Below are positions 3,108 to 17,315 of a stretch of DNA of 17,517 bases, in pieces (within the stretch, counting starts at the first letter, position 1; the number at the start of each line of letters is the position of its first letter). The stretch is taken from contig CAKZJI010000003.1 in the NCBI GenBank assembly GCA_936941515.1, positions 1-17,517 on the forward strand. The letters are read 5' to 3'. This DNA is from an uncultured Propionibacteriaceae bacterium (GTDB taxonomy: Bacteria > Actinomycetota > Actinomycetes > Propionibacteriales > Propionibacteriaceae). The translations under genes and the position numbers were made by a program. The notes below the pieces were generated by a model. That model saw only the letters and a list, made by a program, of their open reading frames with translations. It was not told where the DNA came from and did not search any database.

Positions 3108-3196
3108 TTCTTTCCTTGCCTGTGGCCCAGGAACGTGGCTGCGGTGATCTGGGCTGGGTTAAAAAGATGTCTGGTGCGCCGTGCAGCATGTCAGCG

Positions 3197-3231
3197 CGTG
3201 GTGGCGCTGTAGGCCTCCACCACGTTAACGT
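3197..3231. repeat. Inverted repeat plus adjoining palindrome in the mvk/permease divergent region
   Basis: CGTGGTGG (3197-3204) and CCACCACG (3217-3224) form a perfect 8-bp inverted repeat around 12 bases. The 10-bp palindrome ACGTTAACGT (3222-3231) directly follows and overlaps it. The pair lies about 90-125 bp upstream of mvk and about 200 bp upstream of the permease gene. It could be an operator or a leader hairpin for the mevalonate operon. I found no clear -35/-10 pair for mvk in the 329-bp gap 3108-3436. Apart from this repeat and the permease promoter, I see nothing else there. Confidence 0.4.
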
Positions 3232-3398
3232 CTGCTCATATGCGAATAGTTCCCCAAAGCTGCTGATAATCCTCAAATTCTCGTTATTGGTTTTGGCTGT
3301 GGGCTTTGCCGAGCGTATCGGCCCCATCTGGCCAGCCGCAAGTTCACCCAGGCCCCCTCAGCTGGCCTCCAACCGGCTTCCTGTGGGCGTGACGACCA

Positions 3399-3429
3399 TG
3401 GACAGAGGCATCCACCAAGACCGTATAGT
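3399..3429 (+). promoter_or_regulatory. Predicted promoter of the amino-acid permease gene (leaderless)
   Basis: TGGACA (3399-3404) matches the -35 consensus at five of six bases. TATAGT (3424-3429) is a good -10, with a slightly long 19-base spacer. The -10 ends seven bases before the ATG at 3437, so transcription should begin at or next to the start codon. This gives a leaderless mRNA, which explains why no Shine-Dalgarno sequence is seen. The promoter is read from sequence only. Confidence 0.5.
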
Positions 3430-3436
3430 GACGCCC

Positions 3437-4795
3437 ATGCCTGCCACATCAACCGGCTTGAAGGCCTCCATGCGACCCCGTCACCTGGTGATGATGAGCC
3501 TGGGATCAGCCATCGGGGCCGGGTTGTTCGTGGGTTCCGGTGTCGGCATAGCAGCTGCGGGGCCGTCGGTGCTGCTGGCCTATCTGATCGCGGGTCTCAT
3601 CATCCTGGCGGTGATGAGGATGCTGGCGGAGATGGTGGCAGCCGACCCGAACCCGGGTGCGTTCTCGTATTACGCGGGCAAGGCCATGGGGCGACCCGCC
3701 GCATTCGCATTGGGCTGGCTGTGGTGGATCGAGTTCTGCCTGGTGGTGGCCGCGGAGGCAACAGCCGCGGCGCAGTACCTGAACGGGATCTTCCCGGCGA
3801 CGCCGCCATGGGTCTTCGCGTTGATCGCCATGGTCGCGTTCACCGCAAGCAATCTCGTGCATGTGGGCAGCTTCGGTGAGCTGGAGTTCTGGTTCGCGCT
3901 CATCAAGGTGGGCTTCGTCGTCGGGTTCCTCATCCTGGGGGTCGCCTTCCTGCTGGGGCTCACCTCCGGCGCCTCCCCCGGACTGCACAACGTCGTGGAT
4001 GCGCCGTTCATGCCGAAGGGGATCAGCGGGGTCGCGGGTGCGCTGCTGGTGGTGATCTTCGCATTCGGGGGCATTGAGCTGATGGCTGTCGCGGCCGCCG
4101 AGACCGCGGATCCGCGACGCAGCGTCGCCAAAGCCGTTCGCACCATCTTGTGGCGGATCCTGCTGTTCTACATGGGTGCGGTGACGGTGATGCTGCTGGC
4201 ACTGCCCTGGGACAGTCCCGAGATTGAGAAGGCCCCGTTCGTCGCCGTGCTGAACACGGCGGGCTTCCCCGCTCTGGCAGCGGCGATCGCGGTGGTGATC
4301 ATTCTGGCCCTGCTCTCGTCGCTCAACGCGAATCTCTACGGGGCGTCACGGATGATCTTCTCCCTGGCGGAGCGGGGCATGGCCCCCGCCGCGCTGCATC
4401 GCACCACCTCTCGCGGGGTTCCAGTCAGCAGCGTTCTGGCGACATCGGTGTTCGGGTTCGTCGCCGTGGCACTCAACTACTTCTGGGGCGAGGCGGTGCT
4501 GAAGGCCCTGCTGAACATCGTCGGCTCAACCCTGATTGTCACCTGGATCGCGATCATCGTCTCCCATCTGGTGCTGCGTCGCCGGGCGGAACGCGACGGA
4601 GCCGACCTGCCCCTGAGGATGTGGTGCTTCCCGTACCTGTCATGGGTGACGTTGGCGGCGCTGCTGGGCGTCGTCGTCCTCGGCTACACCGTCCCAGAGG
4701 TCGCGGCACAGCTGAGCACCACCTTCCTGCTGACTGCGGCACTGTACGTCGTCGGCTGGCTACTGGAGCGTCGCCGCGCATCCTCCACGACATGA
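3437..4795 (+). CDS. Amino-acid permease, APC superfamily (AAT-like)
   Basis: A 452-residue integral membrane protein with about twelve hydrophobic segments. The N-terminus MRPRHLVMMSLGSAIGAGLF carries the G-S-A-I-G-A-G-L-F motif of TM1 in amino acid/proton symporters such as GabP, AnsP, ProY and CycA. Next come a PSVLLAYLIAG segment and the ML-A-E-M region with N-P-G-A-F-S-Y-Y-A of TM2-3. The substrate cannot be told from sequence. The open frame continues far upstream to 2975, but that part is antisense to mvk and lacks family similarity. ATG 3437 fits the family N-terminus and the promoter placement; ATG 3398 is an alternative with 13 extra residues. The gene stands alone and is divergent from the mevalonate operon. 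Confidence 0.88.
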   Translation: MPATSTGLKASMRPRHLVMMSLGSAIGAGLFVGSGVGIAAAGPSVLLAYLIAGLIILAVMRMLAEMVAADPNPGAFSYYAGKAMGRPAAFALGWLWWIEFCLVVAAEATAAAQYLNGIFPATPPWVFALIAMVAFTASNLVHVGSFGELEFWFALIKVGFVVGFLILGVAFLLGLTSGASPGLHNVVDAPFMPKGISGVAGALLVVIFAFGGIELMAVAAAETADPRRSVAKAVRTILWRILLFYMGAVTVMLLALPWDSPEIEKAPFVAVLNTAGFPALAAAIAVVIILALLSSLNANLYGASRMIFSLAERGMAPAALHRTTSRGVPVSSVLATSVFGFVAVALNYFWGEAVLKALLNIVGSTLIVTWIAIIVSHLVLRRRAERDGADLPLRMWCFPYLSWVTLAALLGVVVLGYTVPEVAAQLSTTFLLTAALYVVGWLLERRRASSTT

Positions 4796-4934
4796 CCCCA
4801 TGGCCCGGGCATCTGCGACAAAAGAACTGGCAGTCCATGCGAGCTGCCGGAAGCCCCCCGACAGACACAATGCCATCGCCATGACACCACGCCTCAACAC
4901 GCTCCGCTCTAAGAGCGCTCCTCAAACGTGAATC

Positions 4935-4979
4935 TTGACATACCCCACCCCCTGAGCACAGTGGTTCATTACACTGAAC
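4935..4979 (+). promoter_or_regulatory. Promoter-like and dyad sequences before the hchA remnant
   Basis: A perfect -35 hexamer TTGACA lies at 4935-4940, and TACACT at 4970-4975 resembles a -10, but the 29-base gap between them is too long for one promoter. The dyad GTTCA-N6-TGAAC (4964-4979) surrounds the -10-like box and could be a regulator site. A short dyad CGCTCT-A-AGAGCG lies just upstream at 4905-4917. The rest of 4796-5061 shows nothing I can name. Confidence 0.25.
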
Positions 4980-5061
4980 ACGTCAGTCATTGATTCCATC
5001 ATCAACAGCGCATGCAATGCCCTCGCCGGAGGGTCATTGATGCGCAGTGAGGAGAAAAGTC

Positions 5062-5304
5062 ATGCCTGTCGCGCAGTGGATGCACGTCTCCAAGCGTTAT
5101 CCCGACGCCAAGAACCTGCCCGGCCAGCTGGAGTGGCTGCTGGGCAAGAAGCTCACCGAGCAGGGCCTGACGGTGGTCAACGACGGCATGAGCGGCCAAG
5201 TCCACAGGGACCGCAAGCTCATCACCGGCGACAGCCCCCTGGCTGCCAACGCCCTGGGACGCCTGGCGGTGGAGACCCTGACGGGCAAGCCCTACAGCGC
5301 CTGA
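5062..5304 (+). pseudogene. hchA: C-terminal remnant of HchA/Hsp31-type glyoxalase III / protein deglycase
   Basis: The 80-residue frame starting [18 protein letters not shown] contains, from about residue 19 on, the C-terminal end of HchA (Hsp31, DJ-1/PfpI superfamily). The [26 protein letters not shown] and [14 protein letters not shown] segments line up closely with the end of E. coli HchA. The family protein is about 280 residues. This piece lacks the region holding the Glu86/Cys185/His186 active-site residues of the E. coli enzyme, so it cannot be an active glyoxalase. The ATG has a strong GAGGAG Shine-Dalgarno at 5049-5054. A deletion may have joined an original start region to the C-terminus, or the short product may still be made. 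The frame has no internal stop. Confidence 0.75.
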
Positions 5305-5340
5305 GCATCGCCAGATAATCACCAGCTCTGCCGTCGCCCT

Positions 5341-5417
5341 GTGCACGAAACGCCGCTCCGCGTCCCAGTGCCGTCGCCACTGTTCGGCCCCTGCGCCGCA
5401 GGCGGCGTTTCATGCAC
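5341..5417. repeat. 77-bp inverted-repeat element with internal hairpins
   Basis: GTGCACGAAACGCCGC (5341-5356) pairs with GCGGCGTTTCATGCAC (5402-5417) at 15 of 16 positions. In minus-strand RNA the odd pair is a G-U wobble, so the stem would be complete. Inside lie two smaller dyads, CAGTG-N7-CACTG (5366-5382) and CTGC-GCC-GCAG (5391-5401), giving a three-way-junction shape. It begins 36 bp after the hchA remnant. It could be a terminator-like structure, a small palindromic mobile element or a structured RNA. No U-run follows on either strand. Confidence 0.5.
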
Positions 5418-5452
5418 GCTGTTTACCCGCTGCTCACCCTGCTGCAATGCAA

Positions 5453-5488
5453 CCGACGCCAAAGCTCATGCAGCCGACGCCAAAGCTC
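5453..5488. repeat. Short tandem direct repeat, 21-bp period
   Basis: CCGACGCCAAAGCTC occurs at 5453-5467 and again at 5474-5488, with six different bases between. It lies in the non-coding stretch between the hchA remnant and the tRNA gene. No function is evident. Confidence 0.6.
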
Positions 5489-5513
5489 CGGAACGGGGCC
5501 GAGCAATCGCCCT

Positions 5514-5548
5514 AAAACGGGGAGAGCCCCCGGATCTCCGGGGGCTCT
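5514..5548 (-). terminator. Rho-independent-like terminator of the tRNA-Ser gene
   Basis: AGAGCCCCCGG (5523-5533) and CCGGGGGCTCT (5538-5548) form a perfect 11-bp stem with the four-base loop ATCT. On the minus strand it is followed after five bases by TTTT (5517-5514). The stem begins one base after the encoded CCA of the tRNA, so it should end transcription right behind it. Confidence 0.75.
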
Positions 5549-5549
5549 G

Positions 5550-5637
5550 TGGCGGTGACGGTGGGATTTGAACCCACGGTGGCTTGCACCACACTCGCTT
5601 TCGAGGCGAGCTCTTTCGGCCGCTCAGACACGTCACC
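5550..5637 (-). tRNA. tRNA-Ser (anticodon CGA), CCA encoded
   Basis: On the minus strand the 7-bp acceptor arms are GGTGACG (5637-5631) and CGTCACC (5560-5554), then discriminator G (5553) and encoded CCA (5552-5550). The anticodon arm CTCGC-CTCGAAA-GCGAG gives anticodon CGA, reading codon UCG. A long variable arm (around GTGGTGCAAGCCAC) is typical of serine tRNAs. The T arm is GTGGG-TTCAAAT-CCCAC. The D arm has the short TCT/AGA stem and a GCGGCC loop. All elements look intact. Confidence 0.96.
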
Positions 5638-5644
5638 GCCGACG

Positions 5645-5672
5645 ATCTTAGCCCCGAACACCACGAGCACAA
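5645..5672 (-). promoter_or_regulatory. Predicted promoter of tRNA-Ser
   Basis: On the minus strand TTGTGC (5672-5667) and TAAGAT (5650-5645) are separated by 16 bases. The -10 ends seven bases before the mature tRNA 5' end at 5637, so the primary transcript would have almost no 5' leader. Confidence 0.5.
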
Positions 5673-5875
5673 AATGAAGGAGACCCACACGCAGCCCGTG
5701 CGGGCAGGGGTCCGTACGTACCCGGCTTCCTGGGAGCACACGACACGGACGTGACGGGTAGCGGCTTGATGCTCTGAAACAGGAGAGGTCTCGTGGCCAG
5801 GCGAGGGAGTCGAGGAGCCCTGTGATGCACACACCCCTGCCTGCTTGGGGATTTCACATGATTCTCGTCGCGGGG

Positions 5876-5904
5876 TTGACACCCGAATCAAGAACAGTTA
5901 CTAT
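5876..5904 (+). promoter_or_regulatory. Consensus sigma-A promoter upstream of the small lipoprotein gene
   Basis: A perfect TTGACA (5876-5881) is followed after exactly 17 bases by TACTAT (5899-5904). The predicted transcription start is near 5911, giving a leader of about 140 nt before the ATG at 6051. Nothing else was seen between the tRNA promoter and here (5673-5875). Confidence 0.7.
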
Positions 5905-5923
5905 TTGAAATAATTTATTTCAA
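5905..5923. promoter_or_regulatory. Perfect 19-bp palindrome at the transcription start, probable operator
   Basis: TTGAAATA-ATT-TATTTCAA is a perfect 8-bp inverted repeat with a three-base centre. It abuts the TACTAT -10 box and covers the predicted start site. That is where a repressor would block initiation. It is strikingly AT-rich against the surrounding DNA. No regulator gene is in the window. Confidence 0.55.
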
Positions 5924-5931
5924 CATATCAT

Positions 5932-5980
5932 CTCCCAGATAAAATGCATGAGCATCTCGCGCAGCTCATGGAGATGGGAG
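5932..5980 (+). other. Nested stem-loop in the 5' leader of the small lipoprotein mRNA
   Basis: CTCCCA (5932-5937) pairs with TGGGAG (5975-5980). Inside it CATGAGC (5947-5953) pairs with GCTCATG (5964-5970) around a ten-base loop. The same stretch can encode a 20-codon frame from ATG 5944 to TGA 6004-6006, without a visible Shine-Dalgarno. Whether the structure controls translation is unknown. Confidence 0.35.
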
Positions 5981-6050
5981 TGCATCGGACCTGCGGCAGA
6001 GCATGAGGTTTGCGACTCTTGCCACATCCCCACGTCTGAGGAGGCTATAA

Positions 6051-6476
6051 ATGAACGATTTTCGACGGATGGCTGTATTCGCTGCCTTTCTGGGCGTGGC
6101 CACACTGGGAGCATCGTGTTCTGGGAGCATACCCGCCGACCCCAGCCCGTCAGGCGAGAACAGCACGACAGCGAGCGCATCTCCATTCAGCAATACCGAC
6201 ACCCCCCAACCCTCACCTCAGGGGTCACACCTGTTGGGGCGGGTGTTGAACGAGAGTGGCGACCCGGTGGAAGGCTGCCTCATCCACATCGAAGGGGATT
6301 CGAATGAGTATGCGATCGTCAGCAGCACTGATGGAAAATTCGATATGGATATCCCATCGGGGCAGCAGACCTTGATCCTCACCTGCGATTCGGAGCGGTA
6401 CACAGAGACCAGCGTCACCATCGAGGCACCAAAAAACGAAGAGTTCTCACAGGACTTCACAGTCCAGGCGCGATAA
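6051..6476 (+). CDS. Small secreted lipoprotein with carboxypeptidase-regulatory-like domain
   Basis: A 141-residue protein with a lipoprotein signal peptide: MNDFRR, a hydrophobic core, then the lipobox LGASC with Cys23. Residues 24-60 are a Ser/Thr/Pro-rich linker, as expected for a surface tether. From about residue 61, HLLGRVLNESGDPVEGCLIH, a TDGKFDMDIPSG turn and a final FTVQAR strand match the beta-sandwich pattern of carboxypeptidase-regulatory-like (CarboxypepD_reg/Cna-B-like) domains. Such domains usually mediate binding, not catalysis. The ATG has a strong GAGGAGG site at 6038-6044. It lies behind a consensus promoter with a palindromic operator. The protease gene follows after 177 bp and may share the transcript. 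The exact role is unknown. Confidence 0.8.
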   Translation: MNDFRRMAVFAAFLGVATLGASCSGSIPADPSPSGENSTTASASPFSNTDTPQPSPQGSHLLGRVLNESGDPVEGCLIHIEGDSNEYAIVSSTDGKFDMDIPSGQQTLILTCDSERYTETSVTIEAPKNEEFSQDFTVQAR

Positions 6477-6653
6477 TCAGCGTATCTCCTCACGCAGGAC
6501 ACACCGATGCGACACAAACAACACTGCCGCCAACAATAGATTCAGCAGCAAAAGAACCAGCAAGGCCTAGAGTTTGATTCCTTGCTCACGACTCGGCACG
6601 CATCCACGCGACCGGGTTGACCACAACAAAAACAAAAAAGAAAGGAAAAGGAA

Positions 6654-7544
6654 GTGTCGAGACACTCCACTTTACGCAAAGCGGGTCCCCTATTGGGAGC
6701 TTTTCTGCTCTGCCTGTCGGGAATCGGCCTGGTAGGTCCAGCCTCCCAGGCCAGGGCTGACGAGGCACCACAGGATCAAGCGTCGCCGGTCGGCGTGGAT
6801 GCCCAGGGCAATCCACTGGACATCCCCCAGGACCTCCTCGAAGCCACTAACCGCGAGTCCGGAGCCATGGAAGAATCCACAGATGGATACTCCCCGGATG
6901 GCGGATCAGATGAGAAGGTCATCGGAGAAGACGGCCGCAGACACATCACCAACACCACTGATTACCCAAATAGCGCCATCGTCTATCTGCACAAACACAA
7001 TGGAAATCAATACTGCACGGGGTGGCTCGTTTCTCCCGATACCCTAGTGACCGCAGGCCACTGCATCTATAACAACAATGGCTGGAACTTCGATCTCGAA
7101 TACAGCCCGGGCGCGAATGGAGCCGAGCGCCCCTATGGAACAGCCAAGGCAGCACGAATCTGGACAGATACTTCTTGGATCAGCAACCGCAATAACAAGC
7201 AGGACTGGGGTATCGTGAAGCTCGACAAGTCCTTCCCGCAGGTGGGGTACTTCGGCTATCGCTGGCAGGAGGCAAGCCTCAACGGCACTGAGGTCGAGTT
7301 GCGAGGCTATCCAGGCGACAAGCCAGCAGGACAGCTGTGGGGCATGGCAGGTCCCATCACAGACAGCAGCTCAAACAATCTCTCCTACCAGATCGACACC
7401 GCCGGCGGCCAGAGTGGCTCACCCGTGTTCCTGGGGGATGTGCATCAGTCCGTCGCCATCCACACCACCGGAGCGAATCGGTCAAACAGCTCCACAAGGA
7501 TCACCGAGAGCCTGTTCAACATCATCAGCAAACTGAGGTCCTGA
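6654..7544 (+). CDS. Secreted V8-like (S1B) serine endopeptidase
   Basis: A 296-residue exported trypsin-fold protease. The signal peptide ends near ASQARA (about residue 35). An acidic propeptide of roughly 65 residues follows. The catalytic domain has the triad His136 (VTAGHC), Asp184 (KQDWGIVKL) and Ser254 (GGQSGSPVF), with ITDSSSNNLSY and AIHTTG elements as in staphylococcal V8 and other glutamyl endopeptidases. Glu specificity is likely but not proved. The start is GTG 6654 after a purine-rich run (6636-6653) holding AAAGGA; the 6477-6653 gap has no clear promoter. Lower-GC codon use and its neighbours suggest an accessory gene. A long hairpin follows at 7556. Confidence 0.9.
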   Translation: MSRHSTLRKAGPLLGAFLLCLSGIGLVGPASQARADEAPQDQASPVGVDAQGNPLDIPQDLLEATNRESGAMEESTDGYSPDGGSDEKVIGEDGRRHITNTTDYPNSAIVYLHKHNGNQYCTGWLVSPDTLVTAGHCIYNNNGWNFDLEYSPGANGAERPYGTAKAARIWTDTSWISNRNNKQDWGIVKLDKSFPQVGYFGYRWQEASLNGTEVELRGYPGDKPAGQLWGMAGPITDSSSNNLSYQIDTAGGQSGSPVFLGDVHQSVAIHTTGANRSNSSTRITESLFNIISKLRS

Positions 7545-7555
7545 CCTCATAACCA

Positions 7556-7586
7556 GCGTGGGGGAGGCGGCGCGCCTCCCCCACGC
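7556..7586 (+). terminator. Strong hairpin after the protease gene
   Basis: GCGTGGGGGAGGC (7556-7568) and GCCTCCCCCACGC (7574-7586) form a perfect 13-bp GC-rich stem with the five-base loop GGCGC, 11 bases after the protease stop codon. There is no U-run, so it is either a U-less terminator or an mRNA-stabilising structure. It separates the protease gene from the permease remnant. Confidence 0.7.
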
Positions 7587-7630
7587 TCCATTCACGGACA
7601 TCTCTGTCAGGTCCCCTCGATGGCTCAACG

Positions 7631-7813
7631 CCACCGAGGGGTCCGGAATGACTGCAGAGAAGTTGAACCAGATCGCACAACTGCCGGGGGTCAGCGGCGT
7701 AGTGATCGATCTCAAAGCCTCCATCTACGGCGACGGGAAGGACACCTGGGATGCCAATGTCCAGGTGATACGCCCCTGGCTACTGCCACCAGGCGTGACC
7801 ACTCAACAGCTTG
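7631..7813 (+). repeat. Direct repeat, left copy (183 bp)
   Basis: Left copy of a 183-bp repeat whose right copy is 10875-11057, in the same orientation at a spacing of 3,244 bp. The two differ at only two positions (GGCGTG here, GGTGCG there, near 7793-7796). Confidence 0.95.
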
Positions 7814-7877
7814 GCAACAGAGCTTCGCGCACAGGGACTCGACGTAACAGCCGAACGCGACCACCCAGGCTCCCTGC
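7631..7877 (+). pseudogene. Broken, internally deleted copy of the ABC permease gene at 10661-11869
   Basis: Bases 7631-7813 match 10875-11057 at 181 of 183 positions (permease codons 72-133). Bases 7806-7877 then match 11367-11438 with a handful of changes (codons 236-260). The two parts meet at the shared 8-mer ACAGCTTG, which also sits at both ends of the missing 317 bp in the intact gene. This is the mark of a deletion between short direct repeats. As 317 is not a multiple of three, the frame is broken after QQL. A further 9-bp deletion may explain the CCCTGCTCG at 7873-7881. It has no start and none of the membrane segments, so the longer open frame across it is not a gene. Confidence 0.9.
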
Positions 7878-7972
7878 TCGGTTCATAGCCATCATCATCC
7901 GCCGCACCTCAGACACACTCGTTACTCCTCCATCGTTAGCACAACAGGATCACACATCAATAAAAATCATCC

Positions 7973-8001
7973 TTGACACAGACGATAGCTTTTGATAGAA
8001 T
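7973..8001 (+). promoter_or_regulatory. Consensus promoter of the four-gene secreted-protein/ABC operon
   Basis: A perfect TTGACA (7973-7978) and TAGAAT (7996-8001) are separated by 17 bases. An A/T-rich stretch (7956-7970) upstream could act as an UP element. The predicted start near 8008 gives a leader of about 50 nt. The hexamer ATAGCT occurs at 7985-7990 and 8000-8005, a 15-bp period overlapping the -10, and may be a regulator site. The promoter should be strong. Confidence 0.75.
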
Positions 8002-8057
8002 AGCTCTACCAAAGGCGCGATCAGCGCATTCGCGTAACCACTCGAAAGGCTGATATC

Positions 8058-8537
8058 ATGAAGCGTAAATCTTGGATCGCGGGGGGGGCCGCTGTCGTCT
8101 TAGCTGCAGCAAGCACTCCACTTTTCGTTTTACCCGCCGCAGCGTTTAGCGGCCACGATGAGGTGTACCTCCCCAACACCAACATCCAGTTGCAGGCCAA
8201 CGCCTGGAGCCCCACGGTGATCTCCGGTGGCCGCTTCGACTGGTCCACATCCGCTAAGGCAACCGAAGGGGGAGCACGCAAGCCTATTCAGAGCATCAAG
8301 AACACCGCTACCTTGCGGGCTGAGGGCCTGAACGTGACGGTGTCAAACAACGGAATAAGCGGGGGTACTGGTTTGAGTTCATCGACAAGCCTCTCCTGGA
8401 CCAACAGCAACAGCTGGATCTCAGACCTCTCTGGACGGGGAGGATACTCAGGTCTCGTGTACAAAGTCACTGTCAACAGCGCCGCGTTCGGTGTCCATCA
8501 AGGAGTCAAGCGCTCTGTGGACGTTTGGTCGTGGTGA
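8058..8537 (+). CDS. Sec-exported 159-residue protein of unknown family, possible effector or bacteriocin
   Basis: The protein has a classic signal peptide: MKRK, a hydrophobic stretch, and a likely AAA cleavage site after Ala29. The mature part is about 130 residues and has no cysteine. It is rich in Ser, Thr, Asn, Gly and Trp with alternating polar strands, which suggests a beta-rich fold, and it ends in VWSW. I do not recognise the family, and lactococcin 972 motifs are not evident. ATG 8058 has a GAAAGG site at 8044-8049. It is first in an operon with a lipoprotein and an ABC transporter and sits behind a consensus promoter, so it may be the product the other genes serve or protect against. 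Codons 8-11 contain a run of eight G. Confidence 0.75.
   Translation: MKRKSWIAGGAAVVLAAASTPLFVLPAAAFSGHDEVYLPNTNIQLQANAWSPTVISGGRFDWSTSAKATEGGARKPIQSIKNTATLRAEGLNVTVSNNGISGGTGLSSSTSLSWTNSNSWISDLSGRGGYSGLVYKVTVNSAAFGVHQGVKRSVDVWSW
8081..8088. repeat. Homopolymer of eight G within a signal-peptide coding region
   Basis: Eight consecutive G lie in codons 8-11 (Ala-Gly-Gly-Ala) of the exported protein. A one-base slip would shift the frame and abolish the product. It is a possible phase-variation tract, and equally a place where assembly errors occur. Confidence 0.6.
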
Positions 8538-10060
8538 GGAAAACTCACGGTGCTGCCTCCCTGAAACGGGTGGCAGCACTCTTGTTGGCAACTATCGCCC
8601 TCTCCTTGGCTGGTTGCTCTGGCTCAGAGACGCCCAGTCTGGAGGTGCAGCCGGACTACCTCGATTTCCTTCGCGGGGCGAATTCTCTGGCGCACGGCAC
8701 AGCCGAGCAGCCCCCCAAAGCAGCATTGGCCGCTTCCGCACACGCTGCAGCACTTCTCTTGGCCCGGGGAGAAAAGGTTGACATCAACCCGTCATTCTGG
8801 AGAAGTCTAGTCACCCCGAGCGGAGAGGACGCCGGATGGGTTGTCTACTACATGTGTCTCATCGGCGCTGATCAGGACACGATGAACCAGATTGTGGACG
8901 AGCCGGTGGCGAAGGTCGTGTCCGAGATGCCCGGGGGAGTTGAGGTGCATGAGGCAGTTTCAGGGAATGCAGCGCTTGAACAGCTGACAGGCCGTCGAGT
9001 ACGGACCTGCGTTGGGCAAACGGCGGCATCTGGGTCGATAGAAGTCTCTGAGACAAACGCAGTCATCATCAAGGCGCGTCTCAGCCGAGCAGGATTTGGC
9101 GACAGCTCTCCTACCTCAGACGCAGAGATTGAACATGTGGTTTCTCTCATCGCCGAGCAGGGATGCACCGACTGGAACCAGGCCTCCTCATGGGCTGTGT
9201 TCATTCTGCGCCCTGAAGCGCAGAATCCGGTGCTCAAGGACTGCCGGGAAGCAACGGACCTTCCATTGACTGATCCAGTCGGCCTGCACGTCAGTCTTGA
9301 GCTGGGAATGCCAGCTGATCAGGCGGAGAAGCGTGCACCCAGCGAAGAGCTGAGAAGATGGCTCACCTCTGATTGGACCTCCCGCAACCCGTCCCAGGAG
9401 TCAGTGGGAAACGGCACAGTGGCCAACACGGTCTCGCTGGTGGAGCTGACCCGTCTCAAGGGCTGGGCAACTCCCACCTGGGTGTCCGACGGCGTCGCGG
9501 AAGCCTCTCGCACACATCAGGGACAAGACGCAGCCCTGACCTTCCTGTGCCAAGCCACCCAGGCTGCATGTGATCCAGCCACCCAAGTCAGCGTGCCCAG
9601 TCAGCGTGAGATCGCACCGAAGGTCCTCGATGGCTCCTTGGCAGACGGCGATGGACGTCTCATGGCTCTGGCGAGCCTGGAGAATGTTGAAGTTCAAGAA
9701 GGGCTATGCGATGGAATGGCGGCAGAACTCTACCGCGTCGCCCCGCAGACCTACTCTGCATTGGCGTCTGTTGACAAGACCTGCTGGGAGCCACTCACGC
9801 CGAGCACAGACGAACTAACAGAGCGCATTGTCTCCGCCATCCGCCAGGGCAACTTGGACGACGCCAGAGCGTTGATGCTCCTGACTGAGGCTGTACACGG
9901 CAAGGTCGCCATCAAGGATGAGATGGTGCCCAAAGTGGAGCAGGCTTGGGCTTCTGCCCTAGCCACTGTTGAGGAGGAGAAGGGCAAAGATTTCCTGCCG
10001 AGAGCTCGTCCTCTCAGTTTCGTGCTTTTCTCGACAGCTTTGAAAGAGTGGTCTTCATGA
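8534..10060 (+). CDS. Large lipoprotein of unknown family
   Basis: A 508-residue protein with MRKTHGAASLKRVA, a hydrophobic core and the lipobox LAGC with Cys28, so it should be anchored outside the membrane. No known domain is recognised. The rest is mostly helical and rich in Ala, Leu and Glu. Eight further cysteines are spread along it, in YYMC, RTC, QGC, KDC, FLC, AAC, GLC and KTC contexts; in an exported protein these could make up to four disulfides. I start it at GTG 8534, which overlaps the upstream TGA as GTGA; a TTG at 8525 would only add three residues. It ends in an ATGA overlap with the ATPase gene. A role as immunity, receptor or chaperone protein for the exported product is inference from position only. 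Confidence 0.8.
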   Translation: MRKTHGAASLKRVAALLLATIALSLAGCSGSETPSLEVQPDYLDFLRGANSLAHGTAEQPPKAALAASAHAAALLLARGEKVDINPSFWRSLVTPSGEDAGWVVYYMCLIGADQDTMNQIVDEPVAKVVSEMPGGVEVHEAVSGNAALEQLTGRRVRTCVGQTAASGSIEVSETNAVIIKARLSRAGFGDSSPTSDAEIEHVVSLIAEQGCTDWNQASSWAVFILRPEAQNPVLKDCREATDLPLTDPVGLHVSLELGMPADQAEKRAPSEELRRWLTSDWTSRNPSQESVGNGTVANTVSLVELTRLKGWATPTWVSDGVAEASRTHQGQDAALTFLCQATQAACDPATQVSVPSQREIAPKVLDGSLADGDGRLMALASLENVEVQEGLCDGMAAELYRVAPQTYSALASVDKTCWEPLTPSTDELTERIVSAIRQGNLDDARALMLLTEAVHGKVAIKDEMVPKVEQAWASALATVEEEKGKDFLPRARPLSFVLFSTALKEWSS

Positions 10061-10668
10061 CTTTGCAGGTATCGGGACTGACCTATCGTTTTGCCGACAC
10101 AGGACGCGGTTGCGCCAATGTCTCCTTCACCGCCCGTTCGGGGCAGCTCACGGCTCTGACGGCTCCCTCGGGAGCTGGCAAGTCCACTGCTCTGGCGGCT
10201 ACCGCCGGTGTGCTGACCCCACAGGCCGGTGACGTCCTGCTGGATGACAGGCCCCTCATCCCCGGCGACGCGGCGCTCGTGCTGCAGACAGCGCAGGTGT
10301 TCGACAGGCTCACCGCGTGGGAGAACGTCGCTTGTTCGTGGGGAATCCCCACCGCACGGCTTCGCGACAGGGCTGTGGCCGAACTTGCGCGCTACGGCCT
10401 GGAAGAGGTTGCCGACTCGCGTCCGAATCAACTGTCAGGTGGGCAACGACAGCGCGTCGCTCTGGTGGCTGCGTTGGCGCAGAACAAGCAGCTGTTGCTG
10501 GCCGATGAGGTCACGTCACACCTGGATGAGGCCAATGCCAAGCTGGTCATAGCAACCCTCCGGGAGGCCGCCAAGAATCGAGTGGTTGTGGTTGCGAGCC
10601 ACGATGCCCGCCTTTCCGCTGCTGCTGACCATGTCGTGAACCTGAGAGAGGAGACGCACAGTGGCTGA
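10057..10668 (+). CDS. ABC transporter ATP-binding protein (LolD/MacB-type)
   Basis: A 203-residue nucleotide-binding protein with all core motifs: Walker A APSGAGKST (36-44), Q-loop Gln77, signature LSGGQ (126-130), Walker B LLLADE (146-151) and the switch His182 in ASHD. The D-loop region reads DEVTSHLD instead of the usual DEPTSALD. Short length and pairing with an FtsX-like permease place it near the LolD/MacB and bacteriocin-export groups. I start it at ATG 10057, whose ATGA overlaps the lipoprotein stop; a GTG three codons earlier is possible. Eight bases overlap the permease gene, so the pair is translationally coupled and probably works as a dimeric ATPase on that permease. Confidence 0.93.
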   Translation: MTLQVSGLTYRFADTGRGCANVSFTARSGQLTALTAPSGAGKSTALAATAGVLTPQAGDVLLDDRPLIPGDAALVLQTAQVFDRLTAWENVACSWGIPTARLRDRAVAELARYGLEEVADSRPNQLSGGQRQRVALVAALAQNKQLLLADEVTSHLDEANAKLVIATLREAAKNRVVVVASHDARLSAAADHVVNLREETHSG

Positions 10669-11869
10669 AGGATTTCCCACAGTGGCCGGCTGGTGGTGGC
10701 TGTCGCTGCGCCGCGGATTCTCCTCGACGCGGCAGCTCCTGTCAACCGCGTTGGTCGCAGGACTTCTGATTGCCGCACTCGGTGTTCCCATCACGCTGGT
10801 CTCGGGGGCGGTGTCCGCACAGCAGGCCGGAGCAGGCTCACAGCTGAACACACTCCGGGTGGAGATGCCGGCAACCACCGAGGGGTCCGGAATGACTGCA
10901 GAGAAGTTGAACCAGATCGCACAACTGCCGGGGGTCAGCGGCGTAGTGATCGATCTCAAAGCCTCCATCTACGGCGACGGGAAGGACACCTGGGATGCCA
11001 ATGTCCAGGTGATACGCCCCTGGCTACTGCCACCAGGTGCGACCACTCAACAGCTTGCCGCCGACCAGGTCATCGTGCCTGACCGTATCGACGGCGTCGC
11101 CATGGATTCCCACGTGGGCAAGACCCTGCCCATCAGCTACACCCGCGCCACCGGCGAGTCCACCGGCGAGCAGGCAACAGCCACGGTGGAAGTGGTCGGC
11201 ACCTATCCCGCGGGGTGGAGCGGATACGGCCAGGAGGCAGTCCTGGGAAGCCAAGAGCTGGTGATCAAGCTCTACGCAGCCCGCTACGGGCAGCAGCCCT
11301 CCGACGTTCTAGAGCGCTCAGGAGCCGGGGGCGCATGGGTTCAAGCCGATGACGCAAAGAACATCGACAGCTTGGCGGCAGAGCTCCGCTCACAGGGACT
11401 CGACGTAACAGCCGAACGCGACCGCCTAGGCTCCCTGCCAGGACTGCTCGCAGCATTCCCCACGCTCATCACCGTGGTGGGCGTTGGCATGTCCCTGCTC
11501 CTGGGTGGGCAGATCCTGCAGTCGGTGAAGACGAGCCTCAAGCAGCGGGCCCGCGAGTTCGGCCTGCTGCGGATGCGCGGGTACGGCGTGCCAGACATCC
11601 GACGACTCGTCACCCTGGAGATCCTCTCCGGTGTGACGCTGGGCGCGCTCATCGGGGTAATCGCCGGCACGGGCGTGGGGTTCTGGCTGACGGCCACGCT
11701 CACCCCCAGGGAGCTCATGCCCTCCCTGGGCTGGGGTTCCGCCATGACGGCGCTTCCGCTGCTGGCTCTGATCGTGGCGGGCATCGCCGCCCTGGCCTTG
11801 GCGGTCGGGGTGTTCGCCGTGCAGCGAATCATGCGTCAAGACCCCTTCCTGCTCGTCATGCGCGGCTGA
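10661..11869 (+). CDS. FtsX/MacB-like ABC transporter permease
   Basis: A 402-residue membrane protein with the MacB-type plan: one N-terminal transmembrane helix (about 27-50), a large outside domain (about 51-261) and three C-terminal helices (about 262-286, 319-344, 362-386). The REFGLLRMRG segment (298-307) after TM2 is the conserved FtsX-domain motif thought to contact the ATPase. Such transporters usually use ATP for mechanical work outside the membrane, in export, lipoprotein handling or peptide resistance, not for solute import. GTG 10661 has GAGAGGAG upstream and lies inside the ATPase gene end. Codons 72-133 are duplicated at 7631-7813. No clear terminator was seen in 11870-11953. 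Confidence 0.9.
   Translation: MAEGFPTVAGWWWLSLRRGFSSTRQLLSTALVAGLLIAALGVPITLVSGAVSAQQAGAGSQLNTLRVEMPATTEGSGMTAEKLNQIAQLPGVSGVVIDLKASIYGDGKDTWDANVQVIRPWLLPPGATTQQLAADQVIVPDRIDGVAMDSHVGKTLPISYTRATGESTGEQATATVEVVGTYPAGWSGYGQEAVLGSQELVIKLYAARYGQQPSDVLERSGAGGAWVQADDAKNIDSLAAELRSQGLDVTAERDRLGSLPGLLAAFPTLITVVGVGMSLLLGGQILQSVKTSLKQRAREFGLLRMRGYGVPDIRRLVTLEILSGVTLGALIGVIAGTGVGFWLTATLTPRELMPSLGWGSAMTALPLLALIVAGIAALALAVGVFAVQRIMRQDPFLLVMRG
10875..11057 (+). repeat. Direct repeat, right copy (183 bp)
   Basis: Right copy of the repeat described at 7631-7813. It lies inside the permease gene and encodes part of its extracellular domain. Confidence 0.95.
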
Positions 11870-11953
11870 GCTCCGAGGCCGCTGCGCAGTACGGGCCGGA
11901 TCAGGGGCTGGCCGACTCGTCGCGGTCGGGAGCGGCTGGGGTCCGCGTCAGCC

Positions 11954-12904
11954 TCACGCAGTCCCCAGCTCCCCGAAACCGCCGACCCCATCCACGATCC
12001 GGTCCGCCAGGTCCATGATCATGTCCGCCTCGTGAAGCTGCCGACGCCAGCTGCGGGGAATGTCGATATCCCGATAGTAGGCTCCCGCCAGCTGCCCGTA
12101 GACCGCCCCGACGGTGTCCGCATCGTCACCGAGGTTGACCGCCAGCAGCACCCCGTCCTCAAAGTCATCCGACGACGCGAAAGCCCACAGCGCCGCCTCC
12201 AGCGTGTGCAGCACATACCCCGACGACGAGATTTCCGCGCGTTCCTTCACCCGGTACGATCCCCGCAGAATCTCAGCCAGCCCCTCCGAGGTGACTGTCT
12301 GCGCCAGCTCCTCCGCCAGCGTGAACAGCTCCGTCCGATACGCCCCCTGGATCGCGGCCGCGATCAGCCGACCATAGGCCCCACACGCCTCAACGCACTC
12401 AGCCGCCGGATGCGTGGTCCGGGAGCTGTCCGCCGACACCCGCTGCGCACGGTCCAGATCGTCGCTGTAGGCCATCGCGATCGGGGCCAGCCGCATCAGC
12501 GACCCGTTGCCCGCGCTTCGCCCGCCATCATCATCGCGATACGGCCTCCCCGTCGCCTCAAAGTCCTCCAACGCCCACGCAGTCTGGTTCCCGATGTCGA
12601 AGCAGCGTCCCGTGCTGCTCAGATACCCGTCGCGCCGCCACCGCACGAACCGCCGCAGCTGATCGACGGGGTCATAGCCACCGGTCTCCACCAGAGACGT
12701 CGCAATACATAACGCCATCGACGTGTCATCCGTCCACTGCCCGGGCTCCAGCCTGAACACTCCCCCACCGGTCATGTCATACACCGGCGGGTAGCTGTCC
12801 CGCGACTGAAACTCAACGGTGGTGCCGAGGGCATCCCCCACCGCCAGCCCGAGCAGACTCCCCCGGATCCGTTCCCGCTCCTCGCTGCTCACCATGATCA
12901 TCAT
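11954..12904 (-). CDS. ADP-ribosylglycohydrolase family protein
   Basis: A 316-residue all-helical hydrolase of the DraG/ARH family. From the chosen start, TDDT lies at 58-61, GNGSLMR at 132-138, a THP motif at 164-166 and GDDADT at 259-264. The two Asp clusters are the paired Mg-binding sites that release ADP-ribose from modified targets. The start is unclear: ATG 12904, 12901 and 12895 are adjacent, none with a Shine-Dalgarno. The open frame runs up to a GTG at 12991, but those residues do not look like the family and overlap the GH32 gene. TATCTA (12914-12909) may be a -10 box, which would allow a leaderless message. It is last in the sugar operon direction, 43 bp after GH32. Its substrate is unknown. 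Confidence 0.88.
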   Translation of the reverse strand: MMIMVSSEERERIRGSLLGLAVGDALGTTVEFQSRDSYPPVYDMTGGGVFRLEPGQWTDDTSMALCIATSLVETGGYDPVDQLRRFVRWRRDGYLSSTGRCFDIGNQTAWALEDFEATGRPYRDDDGGRSAGNGSLMRLAPIAMAYSDDLDRAQRVSADSSRTTHPAAECVEACGAYGRLIAAAIQGAYRTELFTLAEELAQTVTSEGLAEILRGSYRVKERAEISSSGYVLHTLEAALWAFASSDDFEDGVLLAVNLGDDADTVGAVYGQLAGAYYRDIDIPRSWRRQLHEADMIMDLADRIVDGVGGFGELGTA

Positions 12905-12947
12905 GCTAGATACTGATGCGTCCAGAATGTCGACGCGACCCACGCAG

Positions 12948-14174
12948 TCAGGGAACCGACGGCCCCACCTCACCGACCTCAGCCACCGCATCCCCCGGCA
13001 CCGTCAGCGTCCACGGCTCGTCCGAGCGCCACGTCGAAGGCACCCCGTCGTGGGGGTAGAACTCGACGACGTCGCCGTCCACCCAGATCTCAGCACCCAC
13101 CCCCGCGGCGAACTCACCGAACGCGGGATGCGTCAGGCGCACCTCACCGGCATCGACGCGCACGCACCAGCGCCGTCCAGCCAGCGACACCTTGCCCGCG
13201 GGCAGGCTCTGCCAGCCTGCGACCAGCGCCGCCGCGGCCACCGGGTCAACCTGACTGACGACCACCCCGTCACGCAGGGACAGGCGACGAGGCAGGCTCA
13301 GGCAGCCAGCGTGGTCACGAACCCCGGGTTCCTGGTTGAGCTGCCGCACCCAGCCGAGCAGCAGCGGCGCCCCGTCGACGACCGTGGCCTGGGGCGCGTA
13401 GAAGTCCGATCCGCAGTCCAGGAACGCGGCCTGCTCCGCCACGAACCGCAGCCCCTCCTCACCGGACTGCTCCAGCTGGCCGACGACCCCCAGGACCTCG
13501 CTCAGCAGTCCGCGGTTGTGGACGGAGAGCACCAGAACCCATTTGTCTGCGACCTGCACGAGCTGCGGGCACTCCCAGATGTCGGCGGTGGCGATTCTGG
13601 TCAGCAGCGGCTCATCACTCAGGAACAGCCCCAGGTAACGCCACGCCAGTTCGTCGGTGCGGTCGTAGAGGAGGACGACGGGGCTGCCATCGACGCGACC
13701 CGCCCCCACGATCGCGAGGCGACGGCCCGCCAGCTCGAAGAGAAACGGATCACGCATGACGGCGATGTCGTCGGTCTGCGGGGTGGTGGCGACGACGATG
13801 GGGTCACCCCACGTCACCAGGTCAGGGCTGCCCCAACGCAGGCACACCGTCGACTGCGCAGTGGCGTCGGTCACCCCGGAGTACACCACCCCGGGTCGTT
13901 CATGACCCGGCAGGTACACCCCGGACCAGCAGCCGAAGGAGTCCGGTCCGCCGGGCGTGGGGCCGAAGGCGATGGGAAGCAGCTCCCAGTTCGCCAAGTC
14001 GCTGCTGACAGCATGCCCCCAGACGATGTGGTCGTGGACGGGGGCATCGGGATTGTGCTGGAAGAACACATGCCAGCGACCATCCAGGTGGGTCATGCCG
14101 TTGGGGTCGTTGATCCAGCCGGCCTGCGGACGCAGGTGGTAGCTCGTGGTCGGTGCGGACATCTCTCTCTTCAT
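12948..14174 (-). CDS. GH32 beta-fructofuranosidase (sucrose/fructan hydrolase)
   Basis: A 408-residue glycoside hydrolase. The WINDPNG motif (20-26) carries the nucleophile Asp23, MRDP (140-143) the transition-state stabiliser, and WECPQL (200-205) the acid/base Glu201. FGCWSG (80-85) is also typical. There is no signal peptide, so it acts in the cytoplasm on imported sucrose or short fructo-oligosaccharides; which one, and whether the sugar is phosphorylated, cannot be told. With an ABC importer upstream and no PTS, unphosphorylated sugar is more likely. The start is ATG 14174, four bases after the permease stop; ATG 14162, preceded by AAGAGAGAG, is an equally good choice. Confidence 0.93.
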   Translation of the reverse strand: MKREMSAPTTSYHLRPQAGWINDPNGMTHLDGRWHVFFQHNPDAPVHDHIVWGHAVSSDLANWELLPIAFGPTPGGPDSFGCWSGVYLPGHERPGVVYSGVTDATAQSTVCLRWGSPDLVTWGDPIVVATTPQTDDIAVMRDPFLFELAGRRLAIVGAGRVDGSPVVLLYDRTDELAWRYLGLFLSDEPLLTRIATADIWECPQLVQVADKWVLVLSVHNRGLLSEVLGVVGQLEQSGEEGLRFVAEQAAFLDCGSDFYAPQATVVDGAPLLLGWVRQLNQEPGVRDHAGCLSLPRRLSLRDGVVVSQVDPVAAAALVAGWQSLPAGKVSLAGRRWCVRVDAGEVRLTHPAFGEFAAGVGAEIWVDGDVVEFYPHDGVPSTWRSDEPWTLTVPGDAVAEVGEVGPSVP

Positions 14175-14178
14175 CTCG

Positions 14179-14988
14179 TCAACGGTGGGAACCGGCGGTG
14201 AGGCCCTCGCGCAGCGTGCGCTGCCCGAAGACGAACACCGCGAACGCCGGGATCATGGAGATCACAACCCCAGCCAGCACCGTGGCGACGGATCCGGTCC
14301 CCATGTTCCCCTGCAACGACACCAGGCCCAGCGGAAGCGTGAAGTTCTGCTCGCTGATGGTCAGGATCAGCGGCCTGAAGAACTCGTTCCAGTGGAAGTT
14401 GAATGCCAGGATACCCACGATGGCCATGCCCGGTGCCGCCAGAGGTGCGTAGATGGACCTGAATGTCCGCCACGGGGTGGCTCCGTCGATCTCGGCGGCC
14501 TCCCCCAGCTCGGCGGGCAGCCCCAGGAAGTACTGGCGCATCAGGAACGTCCCGAACGCCGTCGGGATGGCGGGCAGGATCAGCGCCAGGAGCGTGTCGG
14601 CCAGCCCCATGCCGCGGATCAGCATGAACACCGGGACAATGGTCACCTGCATGGGCACCATCATCGTCGCCAGGATCAGGGCAAACAGACCGTTCCTGCC
14701 CCGGAACTCGTAGCGGGCGAACACATATCCGGCGAGAGCCGCAGAGATCATCTGCCCGGCGGCGATGAGCACCGTGACCAGCGCGGAGTTCAGCACCAGC
14801 AGCCACAGATCCACTCTCTGGAACACCTCGGCGTAGGAGGAGAGGCTCGGTCGGGCGGGAAGGATGGAGCCGTCGGATGACAGCGACTCGCTCGGCGGGC
14901 GAAGCGACGACAGCACCGTCCAGATCACCGGGGTGAGGGTGACCAGGGTGGCGAGGATCAAGATGACGTAGGTGGCGGCTCGTTTCAT
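14179..14988 (-). CDS. Sugar ABC transporter permease (MalG-type)
   Basis: A 269-residue inner-membrane protein with six predicted helices. The conserved EAA loop EAAEIDGATPWRTF that docks on the ATPase precedes the last helices. The N-terminus MKRAATYVILILATLVTLTP is the usual short first helix of CUT1-family second permeases. ATG 14988 has a GAGGTGAGGAG site right before it. It is separated from the first permease by nine bases and pairs with it to form the membrane channel. Confidence 0.93.
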   Translation of the reverse strand: MKRAATYVILILATLVTLTPVIWTVLSSLRPPSESLSSDGSILPARPSLSSYAEVFQRVDLWLLVLNSALVTVLIAAGQMISAALAGYVFARYEFRGRNGLFALILATMMVPMQVTIVPVFMLIRGMGLADTLLALILPAIPTAFGTFLMRQYFLGLPAELGEAAEIDGATPWRTFRSIYAPLAAPGMAIVGILAFNFHWNEFFRPLILTISEQNFTLPLGLVSLQGNMGTGSVATVLAGVVISMIPAFAVFVFGQRTLREGLTAGSHR

Positions 14989-14997
14989 CTCCTCACC

Positions 14998-15867
14998 TCA
15001 CCCGTAGAACACGAAACGACGGGAAAGCCGGAACTGGAGCGCAGTGACCAGCATGATGATGATGGTCAGCACAATGCCGACGGCTGAGGCCCGGCCGAAC
15101 TCAAGCTGCTTGAAGGCCGACTCGTAGATCACCATCACAGCGGTCCGGGTGGAGTCGCCGGGACCACCCCTGGTCAGCACATAGGGCTGGTCGAAGATCT
15201 GCAGGGCAGCGATGATCGCCATCACGGAGGCCACCAGCGTCGTGGGGCTGAGCAGGGGGAATGTGATCCTCCAGAACTGCTGCCAGCTGGTCGCCCCGTC
15301 GACCTGCCCGGCCTCATGGACCTCCTTGGGGATGGAAGCCAAGCCCCCCAGGAACAGCAGGAACGAGAACCCGAAGTTCTGCCACACGTAGACCAGCACG
15401 ACGACGACCCTCGCGCCACCGCCGGAGGTCAGCCACGGCACGTTCCCGATCCCCAGCAGGTTCAGCAGATGGTTGACCTGCCCGAAGTTCTCATTGAACA
15501 GGTAGCTCATGATGATCGACACCGACGCAGCGGACAGAATCAGCGGGAAGAACAGCACAGACCGGAAGAAGGACCTCACCAGCCGTGGGAGCCTGCCGCC
15601 CACCAGCACCGCCAGCCCGAGGGCGACGGCCAGCTGCAACGCCACAGCCACCACCACAAACAGCAGGGTGTTGCCGAAGGAGACGCGGATGACGGGGTCG
15701 GTGGCGATGTCGACGAAGTTGTCGAAGCCCACGAACTTCGGGGCCGTGATGATGTCCCACCTGAAGAACGCCAGCAGCAGGGAGGCGACGATGGGCAGAA
15801 ACGTGAACAGGCCAAGCCCGATGAGCGTCGGGGCCAGGAAAAGCCAGGTCAAGGTGGTGCGCTTCAT
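14998..15867 (-). CDS. Sugar ABC transporter permease (MalF-type)
   Basis: A 289-residue membrane protein of the CUT1 carbohydrate-uptake family. The N-terminus WLFLAPTLIGLGLFTFLPIV and the KFVGFDNFVDI segment are typical of first permeases. The EAA loop reads HEAGQVDGATSWQQF. It starts three bases after the stop of the binding-protein gene. No ATPase gene lies in this operon. Confidence 0.93.
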   Translation of the reverse strand: MKRTTLTWLFLAPTLIGLGLFTFLPIVASLLLAFFRWDIITAPKFVGFDNFVDIATDPVIRVSFGNTLLFVVVAVALQLAVALGLAVLVGGRLPRLVRSFFRSVLFFPLILSAASVSIIMSYLFNENFGQVNHLLNLLGIGNVPWLTSGGGARVVVVLVYVWQNFGFSFLLFLGGLASIPKEVHEAGQVDGATSWQQFWRITFPLLSPTTLVASVMAIIAALQIFDQPYVLTRGGPGDSTRTAVMVIYESAFKQLEFGRASAVGIVLTIIIMLVTALQFRLSRRFVFYG

Positions 15868-15870
15868 CGT

Positions 15871-17262
15871 CTACCTTCTCTTCCTCAGGGCCCGGGTCAG
15901 GTCCTCGTCGAGGCGGGCGAGGGCACCGGGCAGTGCGGACGCTGATCCGGTGACGGCCCCGAGGACGTTCTTGATGAGTGCGGTCTCGACAGCGGCCTGC
16001 TGCGGAGGCGCGGGAATGGGTGCGCTGGGCAGCTGGTCGAGGGTGTCATAGAAGACCTTCCAGTGCGCGGGACCCTTGCCGCTGTAGAAGGCCTCATTGC
16101 ACATGGAGCGGCGGGTCGGGGTGGTGTTCGGGGTGGGGAAGGCCAGCTCCATGCCGGGCCGGGAGATGCAGAACTTCACCCACTCCCAGGCTTCGTCCTT
16201 GCGGTGGGAGGTGCGGAGGATGGCGTATCCGGCGGCCCCGAACTGGTGGCGCTGACTGCGCCACCTGGGGAAGGGGGCGACGTCGTAGTCCTGCGGGGTG
16301 ACTCCCGCCTCGACGAGTCCCTGCACCCAGAACCCACCCGCAGGGGTCATGCCGATGCTGCCGCCCGCGAACTGGCCGACGAGCTCATTGCCGCCTCCCT
16401 GGCTGGGGCTGGTGCCGAGCCCCTCCTCGACGAGGGCGCGCACGAACTCGAAGGCCTCGGCGACCTTGGGGTCGAGGGCATTCGAGGCACGCCACCGGTA
16501 GCCGCCGGACAGGTCGGCCTTGTTGGCCGGGTAGAAGCGGTCCCACAGCCAGTCCCCGCCCAGCACCTTCTCCTCGGTGAGGAAACTGGTGTCGTTGATG
16601 TAGAGCCAGGGGACGATGCCACCCCACAGCCGGTTGGTCCAGTAGAAGGGAACGAACCGCGCATCACCGCCCTGCCGCAGCTGCCGGGCCATGGCCAGGA
16701 AATCCTGGTGGGTCCAGTCGGCGGCGGGGTATGCGACGCCCGCGCTTTCCATGGCCTGGGTGTTGAGGTAGAGGTTGGCGGCGTTGAAGTCGATGGGCAG
16801 CTGGAACAGCGACCCCTGGTACATGAACGCCTCGACGAGGCTGGGGTGGACGTCGGCGAAGTAGTCGGCGACGTCACCGGCGTCGCGGGCGACGAACTGG
16901 TCCAAGGGCTCGGCCAGACGCTCCGCGAACAGCTGGGCGCCCTCCGTCGCGACGACACACACATCCGGCGGGGTCCCGGCCGCCACCATGGTGAGGATCT
17001 TGGCGAAGAAATCGGCCCAGTCGGCACCCTGCACCGCCTGGAGACGCACCCTGATCTCCGGATGCTGGGCGGTGAACGCCTCCACCAGCCCCCTCCTGGC
17101 CTCGGCGTCCTGGTTCGTGCCGAGGATCGCGACGGTCAGCGCATCGTCGCCGCGGCCGGGGATGTCTGCCGCAGTCAGCCGCGGCCACTGGGAGCCCAGC
17201 AGCGCCAGCGCCCCGACGCCGACCACCCCGGCCAGCGCCCCACGTCTGGAAAGCTGAGTCAT
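15871..17262 (-). CDS. Sugar ABC transporter substrate-binding protein with Tat-type signal
   Basis: A 463-residue extracellular solute-binding protein (family 1). The signal region contains twin arginines in LSRRGALAG, followed by a hydrophobic stretch, which suggests Tat export. No lipobox cysteine is visible, unusual for a Gram-positive binding protein, so retention may depend on an uncleaved signal helix. The mature part has the usual LTVAILG strand, the EAFTAQHPEIRVRLQ segment, and a TPPDVCVV segment. ATG 17262 has a perfect AGGAGG at 17274-17269. It is first in the operon and sets its specificity; downstream GH32 points to sucrose or fructans. Confidence 0.9.
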   Translation of the reverse strand: MTQLSRRGALAGVVGVGALALLGSQWPRLTAADIPGRGDDALTVAILGTNQDAEARRGLVEAFTAQHPEIRVRLQAVQGADWADFFAKILTMVAAGTPPDVCVVATEGAQLFAERLAEPLDQFVARDAGDVADYFADVHPSLVEAFMYQGSLFQLPIDFNAANLYLNTQAMESAGVAYPAADWTHQDFLAMARQLRQGGDARFVPFYWTNRLWGGIVPWLYINDTSFLTEEKVLGGDWLWDRFYPANKADLSGGYRWRASNALDPKVAEAFEFVRALVEEGLGTSPSQGGGNELVGQFAGGSIGMTPAGGFWVQGLVEAGVTPQDYDVAPFPRWRSQRHQFGAAGYAILRTSHRKDEAWEWVKFCISRPGMELAFPTPNTTPTRRSMCNEAFYSGKGPAHWKVFYDTLDQLPSAPIPAPPQQAAVETALIKNVLGAVTGSASALPGALARLDEDLTRALRKRR

Positions 17263-17292
17263 CTTCGACCTCCTGACCTCATGCTATGTCCA

Positions 17293-17300
17293 TGTATACA
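17293..17300. promoter_or_regulatory. TGTATACA palindrome upstream of the sugar operon
   Basis: In the 53-bp gap between the tadA stop and the binding-protein start lies the 8-bp palindrome TGTATACA. On the minus strand it supplies a TATACA that could serve as a -10, but no good -35 accompanies it. Confidence 0.25.
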
Positions 17301-17315
17301 GCGGCCCGGCCCCCA

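Follow-up and report, generated by a model that had tools for sequence, protein, structure and literature searches.

An undescribed four-gene module in Actinomycetes encodes an exported, predicted all-beta protein, a cysteine-rich lipoprotein and an FtsX-type transporter and may be bacteriocin-like

Lactococcin 972 (Lcn972)-type proteins are thought to be exported via Sec, to adopt a beta-sandwich fold and to act on lipid II, and the roles of the accompanying B and C proteins are described as unproven (PMC11796350, in excerpt). Brevibacterium Lcn972 operons encode two membrane proteins and an ATPase and lie on an island at a tRNA gene (PMC5719810, in excerpt). A described pair that guards a producer from its own exported product consists of the lipoprotein NisI and the ATP-binding cassette (ABC) transporter NisFEG (PMC8538875, in excerpt). 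Here we analyzed a 17,517-nucleotide stretch of an uncultured Propionibacteriaceae bacterium (contig CAKZJI010000003.1, positions 1 to 17,517; the window) that carries a four-gene module encoding a small exported protein (protein 1), a lipoprotein, an ABC-transporter ATPase and an FtsX/MacB-type permease (Table 1). This is a real and conserved system that, as far as our searches show, is undescribed; the four-gene set was not recognized among the matches listed by PubMed Central. We give an even chance to the reading that it comprises a bacteriocin-like protein and a lipoprotein-plus-ABC self-protection device.

The original prediction, made from the DNA letters, had placed four open reading frames (ORFs) with successive overlaps of 4 bp (GTGA), 4 bp (ATGA) and 8 bp, and all were found at those positions. 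Alternative lipoprotein starts are possible at TTG 8525 and GTG 8531. The upstream site that had been called a perfect promoter is present and one base short of the consensus. Two such promoter-like sites occur in 7500-12100, compared with 0.7 ± 0.8 in shuffled sequence, and the second is on the other strand within the permease gene. The four-gene arrangement is more than chance because the same gene order recurs in distant genomes.

Table 1. Features of the module and of its immediate upstream region in the window
Feature	Coordinates	Strand	Basis or detail
Remnant of a second permease copy	7631..7877	+	Intact-gene codons ~73-132 and 235-255; DNA 99% (183 bp) and 91% identical
Sigma-70-type promoter-like site, TTGACA-N17-TAGAAT, TG before -10	7973..8001	+	Consensus match at 11/12 bases
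First gene: 159-aa exported, cysteine-free, cationic, predicted all-beta protein	8058..8537	+	ORF, relatives, composition, model
Second gene: 508-aa lipoprotein, predicted all-alpha, eight conserved cysteines beyond the lipobox Cys	8534..10060	+	GTG start at 8534
Third gene: ABC-transporter ATPase, 203 aa	10057..10668	+	PF00005, E 5.4e-26
Fourth gene: FtsX/MacB-type permease, 402 aa, four predicted membrane segments	10661..11869	+	PF02687, E 8.1e-10

A strict peptide-pattern scan derived from the first-gene profile returned two loci from a collection of 84,980 species, one in Homoserinibacter sp. GY 40078 (L001) and one in an Actinomycetales metagenome-assembled genome (L002). At both, the lipoprotein, ATPase and permease adjoin the first gene with their order kept. 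Profile searches detected the first gene in 3 of 394 genomes of a class-wide sample (G001 included; G1172 and G1070 new) and in 3 of 154 genomes sampled from the family of G1172 (itself included; G1398 and G1337 new). In G1172 (L113), G1398 (L118) and G1337 (L119) it is followed by a partner of 562-575 aa, an ATPase and an FtsX-type permease. In G1070 (L114; 7914-8840, reverse strand) the protein 1 relative is fused behind a long Pro/Ser/Thr-rich linker, and its gene overlaps that of a 539-aa lipoprotein. Across the seven loci that bear the first gene or a remnant of it (the window, L001, L002, L113, L114, L118 and L119), an extracytoplasmic partner of 508-575 aa is encoded next in 7/7, and the ATPase and permease follow in the same order in 6/7. 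Equal longest contigs for the protein pairs P0001/P0023 (3271) and P0002/P0028 (4213) suggest linkage there too. The linkage of the four genes is real and old, and their co-occurrence across genera, proposed in the original prediction as a check, is borne out. The system is also rare, occurring in at most 2% of the genomes sampled: the first gene was found in 2 of 398 genomes of a further sample, and the lipoprotein in 2 of 396 genomes and in 2 of 213 from the family of G588 (G588 itself and one marginal hit). Each sample includes the genome it was centered on, itself a hit. By mevalonate decarboxylase (80-81%), the closest relatives of the window fall in the family of G588, which may point to an Actinomyces-like organism.

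The first gene encodes a protein whose export signal was judged by eye. Cleavage, which we place before F30, would leave 130 residues with an isoelectric point (pI) of 9.5, 16% Ser, 8% Asn, six Trp and no cysteine, in agreement with the Sec-exported, cysteine-free, Trp/Ser/Asn-rich product that had been predicted. A search of 5.8 billion proteins retrieved 22 relatives at E <= 0.01, all unnamed or 'hypothetical'. In the resulting alignment of 23 sequences (A1, window included), the mature length is exactly 130 aa in 21 (P0022 has 129 and P0020 has 120), the mature pI is 9.4-10.9 in every row, and 21 members are cysteine-free. P0020 looks as if the first gene had been joined to the lipoprotein end, marking another damaged locus. 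An alignment of 13 protein 1 sequences with L113 and L114 among them has 16 invariant columns; 12 are left over 15 sequences once L118 and L119 are added. The distant proteins of L113, L114, L118 and L119 have 133-138 aa, 3-4 cysteines and pI values of 9.6, 8.4, 9.6 and 7.6, respectively. The AlphaFold (AF2) model of the window protein is all-beta from residue 34 (mean predicted local distance difference test score, pLDDT, 78), and its best match among solved structures is the rim domain of the MspA porin. Neither this protein nor the lipoprotein matches Pfam even at E 1, and nothing rises above cut-off for either in Pfam, NCBIfam or PADLOC. Membership of protein 1 in a housekeeping family, which would have spoken against the original prediction, was not found in these libraries.

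The lipoprotein carries a lipobox cysteine (Cys28) and eight further cysteines, and AlphaFold predicts an all-alpha fold. The earlier description of a 508-residue lipoprotein with eight spare cysteines and no recognized domain agrees with our counts and with the lack of a family above cut-off. It has at least six relatives, the same six being recovered by sequence and by profile search (7999 candidates scored in each). Of the 9 rows in the lipoprotein alignment (A3), 8 share all eight non-lipobox cysteine columns of the window protein; the ninth row, the fragment P0028, keeps the first six of them. A six-cysteine series in the L114 partner aligns with the first six of the window family, and there is a fair case from sequence that this partner is kin to it (best BLAST E 4.5e-7, composition correction off). 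By eye, six of the seven partners have a lipobox, and the L113 partner seems to have a membrane anchor in its place. For the L113, L118 and L119 partners, kinship with the window lipoprotein is probable, though not proven; it is judged from their position, their size, weak profile scores and, for two of the three, a lipobox. Their hhalign values vary with the grouping (2-59%) and peak when L114 is included.

An FtsX-type ATPase/permease pair had been proposed to end the operon, and the domain matches agree. The window permease has four hydrophobic segments with a loop of ~200 residues behind the first. Four membrane segments were found in 5 of 6 module permeases and three in that of L002 at the same threshold. 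Assignment of the ATPase to the TIGR03608 type did not hold (93.6 bits versus a cut-off of 254.85), and genuine Lcn972-cluster ATPases also miss this cut-off, with 101.4 bits for L077 and 208.6 bits for L075. PADLOC anti-phage models, scanned with the first protein, lipoprotein and permease of the window and the first two proteins of L118, gave no match; the ATPases lay outside that scan.

FtsX/MacB-type transporters act mechanically on the outer side of the membrane and are not known to carry proteins across it. We propose that the first gene gives rise to a small, mostly cationic, all-beta protein that would leave the producer via Sec and act on other Gram-positive bacteria at their envelope. 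Held at the external surface of the membrane, the lipoprotein could bind the exported protein or shield its target, and the FtsX/MacB-type pair could pull the protein or the complex off the membrane. Our data show the gene content and linkage, the signals for export and lipid attachment as judged by eye, the predicted folds and the class of transporter; from these we infer that protein 1 is toxic, what it targets, that the lipoprotein binds it and that the last three genes confer immunity. This bacteriocin-plus-protection reading is the best supported, chiefly because of the layout, the rarity, the charge in the close family and the loss pattern. In L002 the first gene lacks ~70 codons and its frame is lost, with the three partner genes open. 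In L008 (G588), where no first gene was detected, the middle of the lipoprotein is missing and an in-frame stop interrupts the ATPase. We count both loci in favor of this reading, along with the nearly constant mature length in A1, the low G+C of the first two module genes and their upstream neighbors, and the precedent of NisI with NisFEG.

Several observations weigh against this reading. Identity to the window ranges over 58-23% (protein 1), 28-12% (partner), 49-35% (ATPase) and 37-24% (permease). In 15/15 locus pairs, protein 1 shows higher conservation than its lipoprotein partner, unlike a diversifying toxin. The expectation of a variable first gene with conserved partners is therefore reversed for the lipoprotein; protein 1 is also more conserved than the permease in 7/10 pairs, and than the ATPase in just 2/10. 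Its conservation relative to the lipoprotein speaks against a toxin that evolves rapidly and favors either an invariant target or a structural role; a structural or signaling protein would likewise be consistent with the fixed size and the conserved motifs. The cationic charge is not universal (pI 8.4 in L114, 7.6 in L119), L114 has protein 1 and the lipoprotein without an adjoining ABC pair, and Pfam, NCBIfam and hhalign revealed no sequence relationship to a known bacteriocin. The loss pattern itself comes from two loci only, one of them a short metagenome-assembled contig.

A rival reading is envelope maintenance or surface assembly, in which the lipoprotein and ABC pair would place, release or recycle the exported protein for the producer's own wall or membrane. 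The first gene is well conserved and nearly fixed in length, the gene overlaps are tight, and FtsX-class pairs often power wall or lipoprotein work. We nevertheless consider this doubtful: one would expect a maintenance system to be more stable than this one, which at most 2% of the sampled genomes carry, and the broken first gene of L002, the missing one of L008 and the low-G+C surroundings (57-60% for the genes from ~5640 to 10060, which are the first two module genes and those upstream, versus 65% for the window) also argue against it. It is quite improbable that the exported protein is an MspA-like oligomeric pore former with the lipoprotein as its safety catch. The rim domain of MspA porins (PF09203) is the best fold match of the protein 1 model, but protein 1 has no PF09203 match in Pfam, its hhalign probability is 0.1%, and its 130 mature residues against the 132 of the rim chain would leave little room for a membrane-spanning stem.

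Sensing or detoxification with BceAB-like logic appears very unlikely. Here the lipoprotein and ABC pair would bind an antimicrobial from outside, or the exported protein as a signal; an FtsX-type permease with a large outer loop would suit this, and the lipoprotein could be a binding protein. By eye, however, no two-component system lies beside the module in the window, L001 or L008. In L114 one is found ~2 kb downstream on the other strand, yet that locus is without the ABC pair, and a dedicated exported protein would be left without a role. 

Should the bacteriocin-plus-protection reading be correct, antagonistic proteins of a recurring family have been overlooked because none of the library models scanned matches either protein 1 or its lipoprotein partner. 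The module would then be a compact toxin-protection set whose lipoprotein and mechanical ABC transporter protect from a folded protein and not a small peptide. We further speculate, as a clearly unlikely extension, that it represents a new actinobacterial bacteriocin class: a 13-14 kDa MspA-rim-like beta protein would assemble in or disturb the target envelope, and an alpha-helical, disulfide-rich lipoprotein would capture it for an FtsX-type ABC transporter to strip off, a self-protection device without precedent.

The region upstream of the module has features of its own. A gene directly upstream (6654-7544) encodes an exported trypsin-like serine protease, and 6051-6476 encodes a small lipoprotein with a weak match to a carboxypeptidase-regulatory-like domain; both are equally low in G+C. 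A tRNA-Ser(CGA) gene (5550-5637, minus strand) sits at the edge of the low-G+C stretch and is a possible island boundary. Just past the protease gene, a 33-bp palindrome (7555-7587, 91% self-complementary) is possibly a terminator. The permease remnant has an internal deletion and probably reflects a recent duplication followed by loss.

Among self-protection systems, LanI/LanFEG likewise pairs a lipoprotein with an ABC transporter (PMC8538875, in excerpt). The module differs in its 508-aa, predicted all-alpha lipoprotein and its FtsX-type permease, and no modification enzyme was seen in the operon. The lipoprotein matched no family above cut-off in Pfam or NCBIfam, libraries in which the presence of a LanI model is not confirmed. 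Compared with MacB/LolCDE/FtsEX-type (type VII) transporters, the module ATPase falls below the cut-off of all 25 NCBIfam families listed (the best 25 of 197 hit) and the permease has no meaningful NCBIfam match. The traits of this transporter type are all present in the module: an FtsX domain (PF02687) in a four-segment permease, a large outer loop and a separate ATPase.

The closest layout is found in Lcn972 clusters. PF09683 occurs in 9 of 100 genomes of the genome family of L001, and seven such loci were opened. Three (L077, L078 and L079) encode an Lcn972 protein, a lipoprotein of ~200-230 aa with 5-6 Cys, a 353-359-aa anchored protein and an ATPase, and end in a permease (350-362 aa) that shows three or four hydrophobic segments. 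Of the other four, L074 has part of this layout and L075 is a classical three-gene cluster, and neither arrangement appears among the ORFs listed for L073 and L076. In L077 (3496-6825), the lipoprotein, anchored protein and permease are themselves without a Pfam or NCBIfam match above cut-off. None of the 23 A1 members matches PF09683, and the hits to eight other families are weak (best E 0.017). The hhalign probability of protein 1 against 13 PF09683 sequences is 0.1-0.2%, and comparison with the Lcn972-cluster counterparts puts the lipoprotein at 5% and the permease at 0.6% (3-row alignments). The classical cluster differs in having a TIGR01654-type membrane protein instead; L075 scores 49.8 bits with this model, which neither the window permease nor the lipoprotein hits. 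Unlike L077, L078 and L079, the module is without the anchored third protein, and its lipoprotein is more than twice as long. By these searches no sequence kinship was detected for the exported protein, lipoprotein or permease, and the resemblance of the module to actinobacterial Lcn972 clusters is one of layout: a small exported protein comes first, followed by an extracytoplasmic lipoprotein, an ATPase and a permease built of one segment, an outer loop and further segments.
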